From contig JADLAB010000040.1 in the NCBI GenBank assembly GCA_020848455.1, forward strand, positions 1-46,921: a DNA stretch of 46,921 nt. Reading direction: 5' to 3'. Shown here piece by piece: positions 32,388 through 35,377 of the stretch. Within the stretch, counting starts at the first letter, position 1, and the number at the start of each line of letters is the position of its first letter. The translations under genes were made by a program, and so were the position numbers. This DNA comes from Polyangiaceae bacterium. Lineage in GTDB: Bacteria > Myxococcota_A > Polyangia > Polyangiales > Polyangiaceae. The notes under the pieces are model-generated. The model had not been told where the DNA came from, searched no databases, and worked only from the letters and a program-made list of their open reading frames with translations.

Positions 32388-33109
32388 GGGCGCGGGTCTC
32401 GTCGGGCCGGCGGCAGCTCACCCTGGCGGACCGCGCGCTGCGCCGCCGCGCGGTCGTGGCCGCGCTCACCGTGGCGGCGGTGGGAGCGGTGGTGACCATC
32501 GCGGCGTTCCACCCCAGGCTCGCCACCGGCGCAGGGCCCATCGTCGTGGCCGCGGCGGGCTACCTCCCGCTCGGCGCGGCGGCGCTCTACTGGCTGCACC
32601 GGCGCGGCGAGCTCGCCGAGCTGTTGCGGCCGCTGCGCGGCGACATCGCGGTCGCCGCCCTGCTCGCGGCCGCGATGTGGGGCGCCAGCAAGCTCGGCGT
32701 CGTCGTGCTCGCCCCCGAGGGCACGGAGCGTCAGGCGTGGCTCATCCGCCTCTACAGCCACCTGTCGTGGTGCTCGGGCCGACCGCTCGCCGGCGTCGCC
32801 ATCATGTGGGTGGCGGCGTTCGAGGAGATCGCCTGGCGCGGCTTCGCCTTCCGCGCGCTCCGCGCCGGCTTCGGCGCGCGGCGCGCGTTCTGGGGCACGA
32901 CCGTCCTCTACGCGCTCGCCCACCTGCCGAGCGCGTGGCTGCTCGCGGCGGAGCTCTCGGGGCCCAACCCGGCCGTGGTCCTGGCGGCGGCCTTCGGCGG
33001 CGCCGTGTGGGGCTTCGTCACGCTGCGTTCCGGCCGCCTGTCGCCGGCGATCTTCGCCCACGCGCTCTACAGCTGGGCCGTGGTCGAGTTCCCGCTCTGG
33101 CGCCTCTAG
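32384..33109 (+). CDS. CPBP-family intramembrane metalloprotease
   Basis: The 241-residue polytopic protein shows the CPBP (Abi/Rce1-like) motifs: FEEIAWRG with Glu147, Glu148 and Arg152; TTVLYALAHLP with His180; and AIFAHALYSW with His226, the last motif having Ser where Asn or another small residue is usual. About seven hydrophobic segments surround these. CPBP proteins include CaaX prenyl-type proteases and membrane proteins that process peptides, but the substrate here is unknown. GTG 32384 was chosen because it overlaps the coaBC TGA (GTGA); GTG 32375 is an alternative. Translational coupling to coaBC may simply be compact genome organisation. A hairpin at 33143-33175 could end the transcript. 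Confidence 0.88.
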   Translation: MRARVSSGRRQLTLADRALRRRAVVAALTVAAVGAVVTIAAFHPRLATGAGPIVVAAAGYLPLGAAALYWLHRRGELAELLRPLRGDIAVAALLAAAMWGASKLGVVVLAPEGTERQAWLIRLYSHLSWCSGRPLAGVAIMWVAAFEEIAWRGFAFRALRAGFGARRAFWGTTVLYALAHLPSAWLLAAELSGPNPAVVLAAAFGGAVWGFVTLRSGRLSPAIFAHALYSWAVVEFPLWRL

Positions 33110-33142
33110 AAGGAAGCTCGGCTCCAGCGTCACGTGGCTTCA

Positions 33143-33175
33143 GGCTTCTGGCTCCAGGCTTCAGGCCCAGAAGCC
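33143..33175 (+). terminator. Hairpin, candidate terminator or repeat
   Basis: GGCTTCTGG (33143-33151) pairs perfectly with CCAGAAGCC (33167-33175) around a 15-base loop, 34 bases after the CPBP stop. No U-run follows, so intrinsic termination is uncertain; it also overlaps the GGCTNCAGG repeat cluster. Confidence 0.4.
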
Positions 33176-33276
33176 GGAGCGCGGATCCCACGCGGAGTGC
33201 ACGCACGCACGCGCCTGCGGGGGCGCCGTTTCATCCGGCGTGGGTCGGGCGCGGCCCGGTGCCGGAACTGACTCGA

Positions 33277-33296
33277 TTTCGCCCTTTCGGGCGAAA
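33277..33296. repeat. Stem-loop, left copy of inverted pair
   Basis: TTTCGCCC (33277-33284) and GGGCGAAA (33289-33296) pair perfectly around TTTC. The flanks (TCGA before, GTCTCG after) resemble the reverse complement of the right copy at 33418-33435, so the two could be terminal inverted repeats of a small element of about 170 bases. Confidence 0.6.
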
Positions 33297-33417
33297 GTCT
33301 CGCGGCTACAGGGACCAGGGATCAGGCTGCAGGCACGAGACTCGAGGGAGCGAATCGAGACGGCTCATGCCCCGACCCACTGTAGCCTGAAGCCGGTAGC
33401 CCGAAGCCACGAGTGTC

Positions 33418-33435
33418 TCGCCCGAAAGGGCGAAA
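33418..33435. repeat. Stem-loop, right copy of inverted pair; possible yebC terminator
   Basis: TCGCCC and GGGCGA pair around GAAA, followed by AA. On the minus strand this structure starts 12 bases after the yebC stop and could terminate it. It is the inverted counterpart of the stem-loop at 33277-33296. Confidence 0.5.
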
Positions 33436-33446
33436 CACGACTGTGA

Positions 33447-34205
33447 TCAGCCCGCCGCCTCGGCGATGCGCTGCAGCTCGGCGTCGCTGATCTCGAAGTC
33501 GGCGAAGACGTTCTGCGAGTCGTCGTGGTCGTCGAGCGTCTCGTAGAGCGACAGGCAGCGCTCGGCCTCGCGGCCGGTGATCGCCTTCTTGTTCTTGGGG
33601 ATGTACCCCGCGGTGCTCTCGGTCGGCGGGATGCCGGCCTTCTCGAGCGCGCTCGCCACGACGTCGAGCTGCGGCAGCGGGCACACCACCTGCCACGCCT
33701 CGCCCTCGTCCGTGTAGTCCTCACCGCCGGCGCCGATGGCGATCTCCATGATCTGGTCCTCGGTCGCCGCCGCCTTCGGCACCAGGATGGTCCCCTTGCG
33801 GTCGAAGGCCCACTGGGCGCTCGAGCCCGCGCCGAGCGCGCCGCCGTGCCGCTCGAACACCTTGCGGATCTCGGCCACGGTGCGGTTCTTGTTGTCGGTC
33901 ATCACCTCGACCATGAACAAGGTGCCGCCGGGCCCGGTGCCCTCGTAGAGGATCTCCTCGTAGGAGACTCCCTCGATCTCGCCCGTGCCGCGCTGGATGG
34001 CGCGCTTGATGTTGTCGGCGGGCATGGCGTTCGACTTGGCGACGCCCACGGCCTTGCGCAGGCGCGGGTTGCCGTCGATGTCACCGCCGCCCATGCGGGC
34101 CGCGACCGTGATCTCCTTGATGATCTTGCTGAAGACCTTGCCGCGCTTGGCGTCGGCAGCGCCCTTCTTGTGCTTGATCGTCGCCCATTTCGAGTGGCCG
34201 CTCAT
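33447..34205 (-). CDS. yebC: YebC/PmpR-family protein
   Basis: The 252-residue protein matches the YebC/PmpR family throughout: MSGHSKWATIKHKKGAADAKRGKVFSKIIKEI at the N-terminus, GxNPRLRxAVxxAKxxNMPxDNIxRAI near residues 45-68, YEGTGPGGTLFMVEVMTDNKNRT near 87-109 and a C-terminal acidic domain. Length is normal for the family (about 240-250). YebC proteins were described as DNA-binding regulators, and more recently some have been linked to relief of ribosome stalling at proline runs; which role applies here is not shown. It is monocistronic in appearance, 158 bases from the end of the upstream flippase-like gene. The upstream sequence contains GATAAGAT, a weak -10 candidate on the minus strand. 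Confidence 0.95.
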   Translation of the reverse strand: MSGHSKWATIKHKKGAADAKRGKVFSKIIKEITVAARMGGGDIDGNPRLRKAVGVAKSNAMPADNIKRAIQRGTGEIEGVSYEEILYEGTGPGGTLFMVEVMTDNKNRTVAEIRKVFERHGGALGAGSSAQWAFDRKGTILVPKAAATEDQIMEIAIGAGGEDYTDEGEAWQVVCPLPQLDVVASALEKAGIPPTESTAGYIPKNKKAITGREAERCLSLYETLDDHDDSQNVFADFEISDAELQRIAEAAG

Positions 34206-34363
34206 GGCTGGTTCCGCTCCGTGCTCGGGCTCTGCCCGGCCTCATCTTATCTCGCGCCGGCGCCGGTCGTCTCGACGGCGCGCGCCTGGGGCCGGCAGCC
34301 CGCTCGAGGGCCCCGGCAGAGTCGTCGAGCCGCTTAGCGTGCCGCCCGCGGGACGTCCAGCGG

Positions 34364-35377
34364 TCAATCCCCGGCCCCGGGGCCCTGCTCCTCGTTCGCC
34401 GCGGCCCTCGGCGCGAAAGGCGGCGGCGCCACCTGCCAGGCCACGAAGCCCGCCAGGATGAGCGCGAGGTAGAGCACGGCGAACACGACGAGGCCGAAGG
34501 CGACGCCGCTCTCCGCGGCGAGCCCGATGACGGGGAAGGCGAGCGCCATGAAGAGCTCGCGCACACCCACGCCCGAGACGCTGATCGGCAAGAGGCCGAG
34601 CAGGCTCGTGACCGCCATGAGGCTCATGGCGTCGAACCACGACAGCCCGAGGCCGAGCGACTCGCCGATGAGCCAGCCCTGCAGGTAGTTGACGGCGAAG
34701 CCCGCGACCGTGAGCGGCACGGCGAGCCACAGGCTGCGGCTCACCTGCGCCCGCAGGGCTGCGAGGAAGCGCTCGAGCCCGGCCGCGTCGCGCCGCGGCG
34801 AAAGGCGCGCGTACAGGCGCCCCCCGAGCCGCTCGGCGAGGCCCGGCACGAACAGGACGAGGGGCAGGACGGTCGTCAAAAGGACGCCGAGCCACATGGC
34901 GAGGCCGAGCTTGCCCGTGAGCACCGAGGCGAAGCGCGCGGCGCCGGCGGCCACGAACGCGACGAGCACGTACATGTCGCACAGCCGGTCCATCACGATC
35001 ACCGCCAGCCCCTCGGCGTAGGGGACGCCGAGGTCGTGGCGCGTGTACTGGATGCGCAGCACGTCGCCGACGCGCCCGGGCGTGAGCATGCCCACGTAGA
35101 GCGAGGCGACGAGCGCACGCCAGCCCCGCCCCGTCCCGTAGCGGTGCCCCGCCGCGCGGAGCAGCACCTGCCAGCGCACCACCTTGAGGTGGATGACGAC
35201 GACGTTGAGGGCGAGCGCCGCGGCGAGCGCCCACGGCTCGGCGCGCGCGAGCGTCTGCCACAGCGCCGCCGGATCGTCGATGCGCCAGAGCACGACGAGG
35301 AGCAGCACCGGCCCGAGCAGACGGAGCGCGATGCGCAGCGCCCGGCCCCGCCACCTCGTCTTGCGTGCTGCTGCCAT
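34364..35377 (-). CDS. Lysylphosphatidylglycerol-synthase TM-region (UPF0104) family protein
   Basis: This 337-residue polytopic membrane protein has about eight hydrophobic segments and the family blocks VVIHLKVVRWQVLLRAAG, SLYVGMLTPGRVGDVLRIQYTR and MDRLCDMYVLV near the middle, plus LLPISVSGVGVRELFMALAF late, as in the UPF0104/LPG-synthase transmembrane family. It lacks the soluble aminoacyl-transferase domain, so it is not MprF itself. Stand-alone members of this family are commonly encoded with glycosyltransferases and have been proposed to move lipid-linked substrates. The ATG at 35377 is selected because residues before it are Arg/Cys-rich noise. It is the last gene of the five-gene minus-strand glycan cluster, 34 bases after a methyltransferase. 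Confidence 0.85.
   Translation of the reverse strand: MAAARKTRWRGRALRIALRLLGPVLLLVVLWRIDDPAALWQTLARAEPWALAAALALNVVVIHLKVVRWQVLLRAAGHRYGTGRGWRALVASLYVGMLTPGRVGDVLRIQYTRHDLGVPYAEGLAVIVMDRLCDMYVLVAFVAAGAARFASVLTGKLGLAMWLGVLLTTVLPLVLFVPGLAERLGGRLYARLSPRRDAAGLERFLAALRAQVSRSLWLAVPLTVAGFAVNYLQGWLIGESLGLGLSWFDAMSLMAVTSLLGLLPISVSGVGVRELFMALAFPVIGLAAESGVAFGLVVFAVLYLALILAGFVAWQVAPPPFAPRAAANEEQGPGAGD

Follow-up and report, generated by a model that had tools for sequence, protein, structure and literature searches.

Probable relics of a stop-codon-entering mobile unit with a four-helix-bundle gene between a CAAX-protease-like gene and yebC of a Polyangiaceae bacterium

The interval between a CAAX-protease-like gene and yebC in a contig of a Polyangiaceae bacterium (JADLAB010000040.1 of assembly GCA_020848455.1; the whole stretch of 46,921 nucleotides is called the window below) is occupied by one block, 33108-33446, which is composed of three modules (A, B and C). 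The block probably represents two adjoining relics of mobile elements, and the unit behind them would be a selfish one that inserts itself into stop codons while preserving a working stop; to this reading, which is based on sequence comparison, we assign a probability of roughly three in four. The minus strand from 33446 to 33268 would accordingly be a deleted unit of a four-helix-bundle gene (PF05635/TIGR02436), and module A a second relic with its fixed end in the stop codon of the host gene. Copies are dispersed in the genome, they have been deleted from a full copy, their insertion within or at stop codons is visible by comparison with empty sites, and complementary heptamer arms accompany related genes in many phyla.

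Structure, parent unit and dispersal of the block

The interval comprises the following features.

32390..33109, plus strand: 3' part of the CAAX-protease-like gene (PF02517, E 4.9e-15; the match ends 10 residues short of the stop)
33107-33109, plus strand: TAG stop of this gene, made of the host T and the first two bases of module A (AG); the orthologue in a genome of the same genus (G001) ends in TGA
33108..33267, plus strand: module A, with the fixed end AGAAGGAAGCTCGGCTCCAGCG, a heptamer arm (GGCTTCA...) and an inner end that is cut variably between copies
33136..33165, plus strand: heptamer-type units of module A (GGCTTCA, GGCTTCT, GGCTCCA, GGCTTCA)
33268..33356, minus strand: module B, the 3' part of the four-helix-bundle unit, aligned to 1821-1910 of the full unit L126 and to other copies
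33277..33296, no strand assigned: hairpin of module B, TTTCGCCC-TTTC-GGGCGAAA, 8 bp; this copy is one base short
33357..33360, minus strand: internal-deletion junction, where most of the four-helix-bundle gene is gone, from the alignment to L126
33361..33446, minus strand: module C, the 5' leader of the four-helix-bundle unit, aligned to 1408-1493 of L126
33413..33438, no strand assigned: hairpin of module C, GTGTCTCGCCC / GGGCGAAACAC, 11 bp, 91% paired, adjoining the yebC stop
33447..34205, minus strand: yebC (NCBIfam PRK00110, E 2.3e-92); the four-helix-bundle unit follows it in the same orientation

Module B contains the last codons of the gene, a heptamer arm, the hairpin and the outer end GACTCG, and module C contains a heptamer arm, the hairpin and the remnant of the start codon (ATG at 33368-33366), at which the minus strand reads ATGAGCC. 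Both hairpins belong to inverted arms of 56 nt (33277-33332 and 33380-33435), which are 77% complementary. The unit of the heptamer arm, GGCTNCAGG, is a degenerate 7-nt repeat that occurs 8 times in the window and 6 times inside the block (5 on the plus and 1 on the minus strand), whereas 100 shuffles gave 2.29 on average and 6 at most. Taken as RNA, the minus strand of 33110-33446 folds better than 100 shuffles (z = -6.9); the Rfam scan of the window gave nothing at the gathering threshold. The repeat units, hairpins and spacing reported in the initial annotation were found with the same sequence and at the same positions, and both shuffle counts and folding place them beyond chance. The block that it had delimited as 33131-33441 is real, but it is larger, since its left end reaches into the stop codon at 33107-33109 and its right end extends to the yebC stop at 33447.

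A full copy of the unit, 499 bp in all, is located on contig C67 of the window's genome (G000; 9.2 Mb in 742 contigs, 96.5% complete). It is arranged in the order outer end, hairpin, heptamer arm, gene (120 residues from its ATG), heptamer arm, hairpin and outer end, and it carries the four-helix-bundle gene alone, with no transposase gene inside. The encoded protein matches PF05635 (E 5e-32), TIGR02436 (E 1e-31) and PDB 2GSC (E 3e-24), and it weakly matches the Avd model NF033474 (19.9 bits, the cut-off being 80). The C67 unit possesses complementary terminal arms and, as RNA, folds better than shuffles (z = -5.6). The minus strand of the window aligns to 1408-1493 and 1821-1910 of L126, the approximately 330 bp between them being missing, and the gene is reduced in the window to its first and last codons. 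The missing internal stretch is not the same in the copies from contigs C309 and C379 and from G001. At the site orthologous to that of C67, G001 carries a deleted copy, so that the shortening of the full unit is documented at one orthologous position. A derivative whose gene is interrupted by a stop matches a 39-bp probe without any difference on contigs C36, C72, C189, C218 and C447, besides the C67 copy; these five positions are all near contig ends, and the remaining part of the derivative was located at the termini of C576 and C520. The occurrence of near-identical copies with a broken gene on several contigs suggests that deleted copies seem to have spread recently, presumably moved in trans. 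A second PF05635 gene of G000 (contig C513, L125, 1468-1911) is situated between unrelated heptamer arms, GTTGTCA / TGACAAC.

The block is not a single copy without alignable ends. When 40 of 216 candidates from a search of the genome were scored, 90 stretches matched, and the pattern of the left end (module A), with up to 3 mismatches, was found at 51 sites in G000 and at none when reversed. The 27-base pattern of the hairpin end was present at 30 sites and that of module D, an additional module upstream of A in some copies, at 8, both against 0 in the control. Among the aligned copies of module A one end is fixed and the inner ends differ widely. Matches to the block at E <= 0.001 were obtained in 8 of 58 related genomes (at most 12 candidates scored per genome), G001 being the best. 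In the genome G014, several contigs (L023, L031, L034, L041) carry a B-like stretch, 79-80% identical, no more than about 170 bases from their end, as is expected of a high-copy repeat that breaks the assembly. In the genome G024 (L024, L032, L035) the heptamer part alone was matched, in many places and partly in tandem steps, with the rest of the block absent.

The two-sided structure of the hairpin was followed in an alignment of 38 copies (35 distinct), in which the hairpin of module C from the window was included and that of module B, with its missing base, was left out. The share of paired cells amounted to 91.2%, as compared with 84.7% in shuffles, cells with both sides changed numbered 21 versus 7.2, and the covariation score was also above shuffles.

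Insertion at stop codons

The relation of module A to stop codons was determined by a search of G001 with the joined 3'-terminal 200 bases of 14 host genes, each of which ends at module A. Orthologues, 91-98% identical, were obtained for 12 of the 14. All 12 genes end in TAG in G000, whereas their G001 counterparts end in TGA (10), TAA (1) or TAG (1), and at the single TAG site G001 has an insertion of its own. The last amino acids ahead of the stop agree between both genomes in 11 of the 12 cases, the exception being the copy at L052 17340. At the window site, the G001 orthologue ends in CTGTGA and the filled gene of G000 in CTCTAG. The replacement of TGA by TAG with matching protein ends indicates that module A enters after the T of the stop codon and that its own AG completes the new stop.

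A coding rule for real stops, which combines an open frame with codon-position GC, was applied to 527 kb of G000. According to this rule, 33 of 56 module A copies directly follow a stop, and a further 6 follow module D. Module D itself is preceded by CTGA in 8 of 8 copies, and this CTGA is a stop by the coding rule in 7. The rule accepted 40 of 307 other CTAG and 190 of 1441 other CTGA words as stops. A plain CTGA/CTAG target was thereby rejected as the sole explanation, since other such words are stops in just 13% and the A sites in 59%.

For the hairpin ends (28 of module B and 10 of module C), the junction T|GACTCG or T|AACTCG lies inside an in-frame stop in 8 B and 1 C ends by the rule of the script; at the B end of C67 the junction is visible and this rule failed. 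The second joined query comprised 18 sites, and a G001 counterpart was found for 17. At nine of them (L056, L072, L196, L197, L198, L205, L070, L104 and L087) G001 is empty with a TGA stop, and G000 reads TAA or TAG at two of the nine. Regarding the remaining counterparts, the insertion is common to both genomes in four rows (L062, L051 and both sides of C67), G001 carries another insertion at L107 and L049, L194 has diverged, and the last row is the transfer-messenger RNA (tmRNA) site discussed below. The clearest case with two ends is C379, where G001 reads GCGT^GAGGCC and G000 reads GCCT[159 bp]GAGGCC, a pair compatible with no duplication or with one of 1-4 bp. The inserts at C379, C67 and L160 end in CT, and in G000 the insert is preceded by T, usually by CT. 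A different insert, with arms GCGATTAGC.. / ..GCTAATCGC, is present in G001 (contig C55, L306) where contig C22 of G000 has a B-type insert behind a gene.

The suggestion in the initial annotation of a small non-autonomous mobile element is consistent with the dispersed copies, the empty sites in the same-genus genome and the internal-deletion derivatives. It had also pointed to empty sites and target duplications as features to be looked for; the former were found, and a duplication would be either absent or of 1-4 bp at C379 and of 5 bp at one Nostoc site. The annotation did not anticipate the parent element, nor that the units are heptamers and that insertion takes place in stop codons.

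We propose the following mechanism. The unit would have no promoter of its own and would be transcribed by read-through from the neighbouring gene, its heptamer arms would pair within the transcript, and the encoded protein, which belongs to an RNA-linked family, may help to mobilise the unit; deleted copies would be moved in trans. The usual junction in G000 lies after the T of the stop, with the first two bases of the element rebuilding it (T+AG, T+GA and once T+AA), which makes the insertion nearly harmless to the host. To our knowledge, entry into a stop codon that leaves a stop behind is an unusual choice of target. Retro-type movement by a resident reverse transcriptase has been demoted, because PF00078 was not found in G000.

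Relatives in other bacteria and on cyanobacterial plasmids

In the same taxonomic family, PF05635 matches were found in 25 of 41 genomes, with up to 14 per genome. The arm test within the family, which included 31 of 37 PF05635 loci (six fragments of G000 were left out), gave 30 usable loci, in 10 of which the arms reached at least the 95th percentile of the cross-genome control; among these 10, several arms consist of hexamer arrays. The cross-phylum sample consisted of the best 80 of 545 relatives from species genomes, with members in Myxococcales, Acidobacteria, Planctomycetes, Flavobacterium, Desulfobacterales, Nitrospirae and other groups, and 75 loci were usable. The complementarity of the upstream and downstream flanks was scored against 5550 cross-locus pairs, and the arms reached at least the 95th percentile of this control in 44 of the 75 loci (3.75 expected) and at least the 99th in 20 (0.75 expected). 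The best arm period was 7 in 38 of the 44 loci with strong arms, and the heptamer units vary by group (GGTAGAA, GGCTGAA, AGCGGTC, GTTGTCA, GGCTTCA). None of the five 23S rRNA signature words was detected in any of the 80 loci.

The upstream neighbour, called from the longest open frames with no gene caller, lies on the same strand in 52 of 67 loci (67 of the 80 entered). In the arm-start test, where the upstream frame had to lie on the same strand and be at least 150 codons long and both stops and background stops were taken from open frames, 18 of 32 strong arms begin within 8 nt of the stop, as compared with a mean of 4.2 and a maximum of 10 in 2000 shuffles. The corresponding values in the absence of the arm filter were 20 of 46, with a shuffled mean of 6.2 and a maximum of 14 (2000 shuffles). 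A TA duplication across phyla was hinted at by the arm ends of 32 chosen loci and was rejected, as it is inseparable from the arms' own complementarity.

The four-helix-bundle gene was also found in 24 plasmid records, nearly all cyanobacterial, of which 8 were examined. A gene cluster is common to two plasmids of Nostoc sp. ATCC 53789, which carry the unit at different junctions. At the first junction the empty sequence is GGTTCTAG and the filled one GGTTCTA[..]TTCTAG, with a 5-bp repeat (TTCTA) that covers part of the stop; the second junction is diverged on its right side. For the TraM gene, one empty allele ends in TAA and two filled alleles end in TAG, and the spacer differs as well. At the TraM stop of the Nostoc sp. 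ATCC 53789 plasmid pNsp_c (L333, 916-1176) a heptamer-like insert without a gene is present, apparently a deleted derivative, in cyanobacteria too. Judged from these empty plasmid sequences, insertion at the stop recurs and the exact junction is not uniform. In the Nostoc edaphicum plasmid pNe_5 (L322) a four-helix-bundle unit lies between nrdA and nrdB, opposite to both. In the Anabaena sp. 90 plasmid pANA02 (L326, 1122-1485) about 360 bases, mostly of AGGTGAC/AGGGAAC-type heptamers, are located between cas6 and a four-helix-bundle gene, which precedes cas4.

Weighing of the explanations and relation to known systems

Several observations weigh against a selfish unit that enters stop codons. 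As many as 17 of the 56 module A copies are neither at a rule-defined stop nor behind module D, although some of them look stop-like by eye, and of the 38 hairpin ends (B and C) 11 lie 0-25 nt from a stop, while for 18 the rule of the script finds none within 40 nt. One module A copy (contig C268 of G000, L059, 4663-5010) begins at the 3' end of a tmRNA gene, with no insert in G001, which shows that stops are not the sole target; ARAGORN gives no tRNA at this place but a tmRNA, and Rfam confirms the latter. Modules A and B occur in several arrangements. In the hairpin alignment, neither the pairs with two-sided changes (4 versus 3.3) nor the pair types (10 versus 9.8) exceed the shuffles; few independent events are shown, because the changes mostly reflect how the two ends of the unit differ. 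Across phyla, 31 of the 75 loci fall below the 95th percentile for arms, 14 of the 32 strong-arm loci do not begin at a stop, and an excess of TAG, first counted as 21 of 46 (67 loci entered), is not clear after a stricter count of 19 of 46 versus 61 of 215 background frames. On the plasmids, the filled protein end of the integrase gene is altered beyond the stop, and nrdA keeps its stop, with the arm beginning directly or about one base behind it. The exact junction also varies by group, with a 5-bp duplication at one Nostoc site and none or one of 1-4 bp at C379. Finally, no match to the Y1 transposase (PF01797, at E 0.001) was found in G000, with positive controls in 5 of 14, and none to reverse transcriptase (PF00078), with positive controls in 3 of 14, other recombinases not having been searched.

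The alternative that survives best, which we nevertheless consider unlikely, is an ordinary miniature inverted-repeat transposable element (MITE) with short inverted ends, moved by a DDE transposase with a short duplication (TA, TGA or TTCTA) and merely tolerated at stops. The present copies resemble bacterial MITEs, being small, dispersed, inverted at their ends and internally deleted relative to a larger element with the same ends. At C379 a CTGA is readable on either side, at the Nostoc site a TTCTA, and some copies are away from stops. However, A-type junctions turn TGA into TAG, which is unattainable by duplication of TGA, and the proportion of stops at A sites (59%) is not that of other CTGA/CTAG words (13%). 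Insertion within stop codons is not MITE-like either, and the full unit carries the four-helix-bundle gene alone and no transposase, no DDE search having been made.

Insertion at the RNA level, which we regard as improbable, would involve the joining of element RNA into mRNA at a terminating ribosome, followed by DNA copying and recombination, by a proposed analogy to the intervening sequences in exposed loops of 23S rRNA. It would be compatible with empty sites that show both TGA and TAA stops, with the copy at the end of tmRNA, another ribosome-bound RNA, and with one fixed and many variable ends in module A; the protein family is also described from 23S rRNA inserts (PMC4990558) and as resembling the retroelement protein Avd (PMC10053308). 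The failure to find a reverse transcriptase (PF00078) in G000 and the many B and C ends away from stops argue against it.

RNA-guided recombination of the IS110/IS1111 type, in which the structured ends would serve as guide RNA for a DEDD recombinase acting in trans at an NT core dinucleotide, appears quite improbable as well. The ends are structured, and both the T or CT ahead of the insert in G000 and the CT that closes the inserts at C379, C67 and L160 recall the CT core of IS621, with which GT, AT and TT cores were also tested (PMC11208160). Nevertheless, the host flanks differ among sites, whereas a guide would require one target, and the Nostoc duplication does not fit.

It is very improbable that the block derives from terminators or other host elements that were dispersed through recombination and that selection retained at the ends of genes. 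Their gene-end position and strong folding are as observed, but no intrinsic-terminator-like site lies inside the block (three sites in 32900-34500 are all elsewhere), which leaves the yebC terminator proposed in the initial annotation without support. Moreover, the zero-distance junction alters the stop, and the derivative with a broken parent gene is present in several near-identical copies. Repetitive extragenic palindromic (REP) sequences and bacterial interspersed mosaic elements (BIMEs) mobilised by REP-associated tyrosine transposases (RAYTs), the other class considered in that annotation, share with the block short opposite hairpins between genes, described as lying mostly downstream of coding regions (PMC3733652), but are already contradicted, because the hairpins follow GACTC in the 38-copy alignment and are succeeded by TCG in the displayed copies, with no unpaired GTAG/CGTC tag seen by eye beside them, a search of the genome (96.5% complete) found no Y1/RAYT transposase, and the parent holds a gene of another family.

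The selfish unit entering stop codons, which we prefer, has points of contact with other systems. Heptamer repeats of the type TAACTGA in Beggiatoaceae are 7-nt intergenic direct repeats, some of them over stop codons (PMC4679880); unlike them, the present heptamers flank a four-helix-bundle gene in inverted arms, and neither S23 nor 'four helix' appears in that text. The Avd protein of diversity-generating retroelements belongs to a related fold family, as described in PMC10053308 and as the weak match to NF033474 suggests, whereas no reverse transcriptase (PF00078) was found in G000. A close parallel is the intervening sequence (IVS) of 23S rRNA, for example in Coxiella burnetii, in which the S23 open reading frame stands between complementary arms that form a long stem; such inserts are sporadic, are called selfish and are described as being of unclear origin (PMC4990558). 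A gene of the PF05635 family (the full copy on C67) and complementary stem-forming arms (in the window, on C67 and in 44 of 75 loci) are common to both, but the IVS resides inside helices of 23S rRNA and the present units are dispersed at the ends of protein genes. In the open-licence literature we found no account of dispersed PF05635 units that lie at stop codons or have heptamers on their flanks.

Summarizing, relatives of the S23 gene have been caught here in dispersed units for which empty sites, an intact copy and deleted copies are all at hand, one of the deleted copies at the same orthologous site. This makes it possible to test the target rule, whether the protein is needed and which enzyme moves the unit. 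A broader proposal, on which we are evenly divided, is that S23/Avd-like genes between inverted heptamer arms constitute a mobile class across many phyla that enters the stops of protein genes and rebuilds the stop from its own first bases; the IVS of 23S rRNA would be its rRNA-dwelling branch, and many unexplained intergenic heptamers would be its relics. The element links a widespread gene family of unknown function with intergenic heptamer repeats and the Avd fold, and the shrunken copy beside yebC offers a route to studying the movement of the long-puzzling inserts of 23S rRNA.
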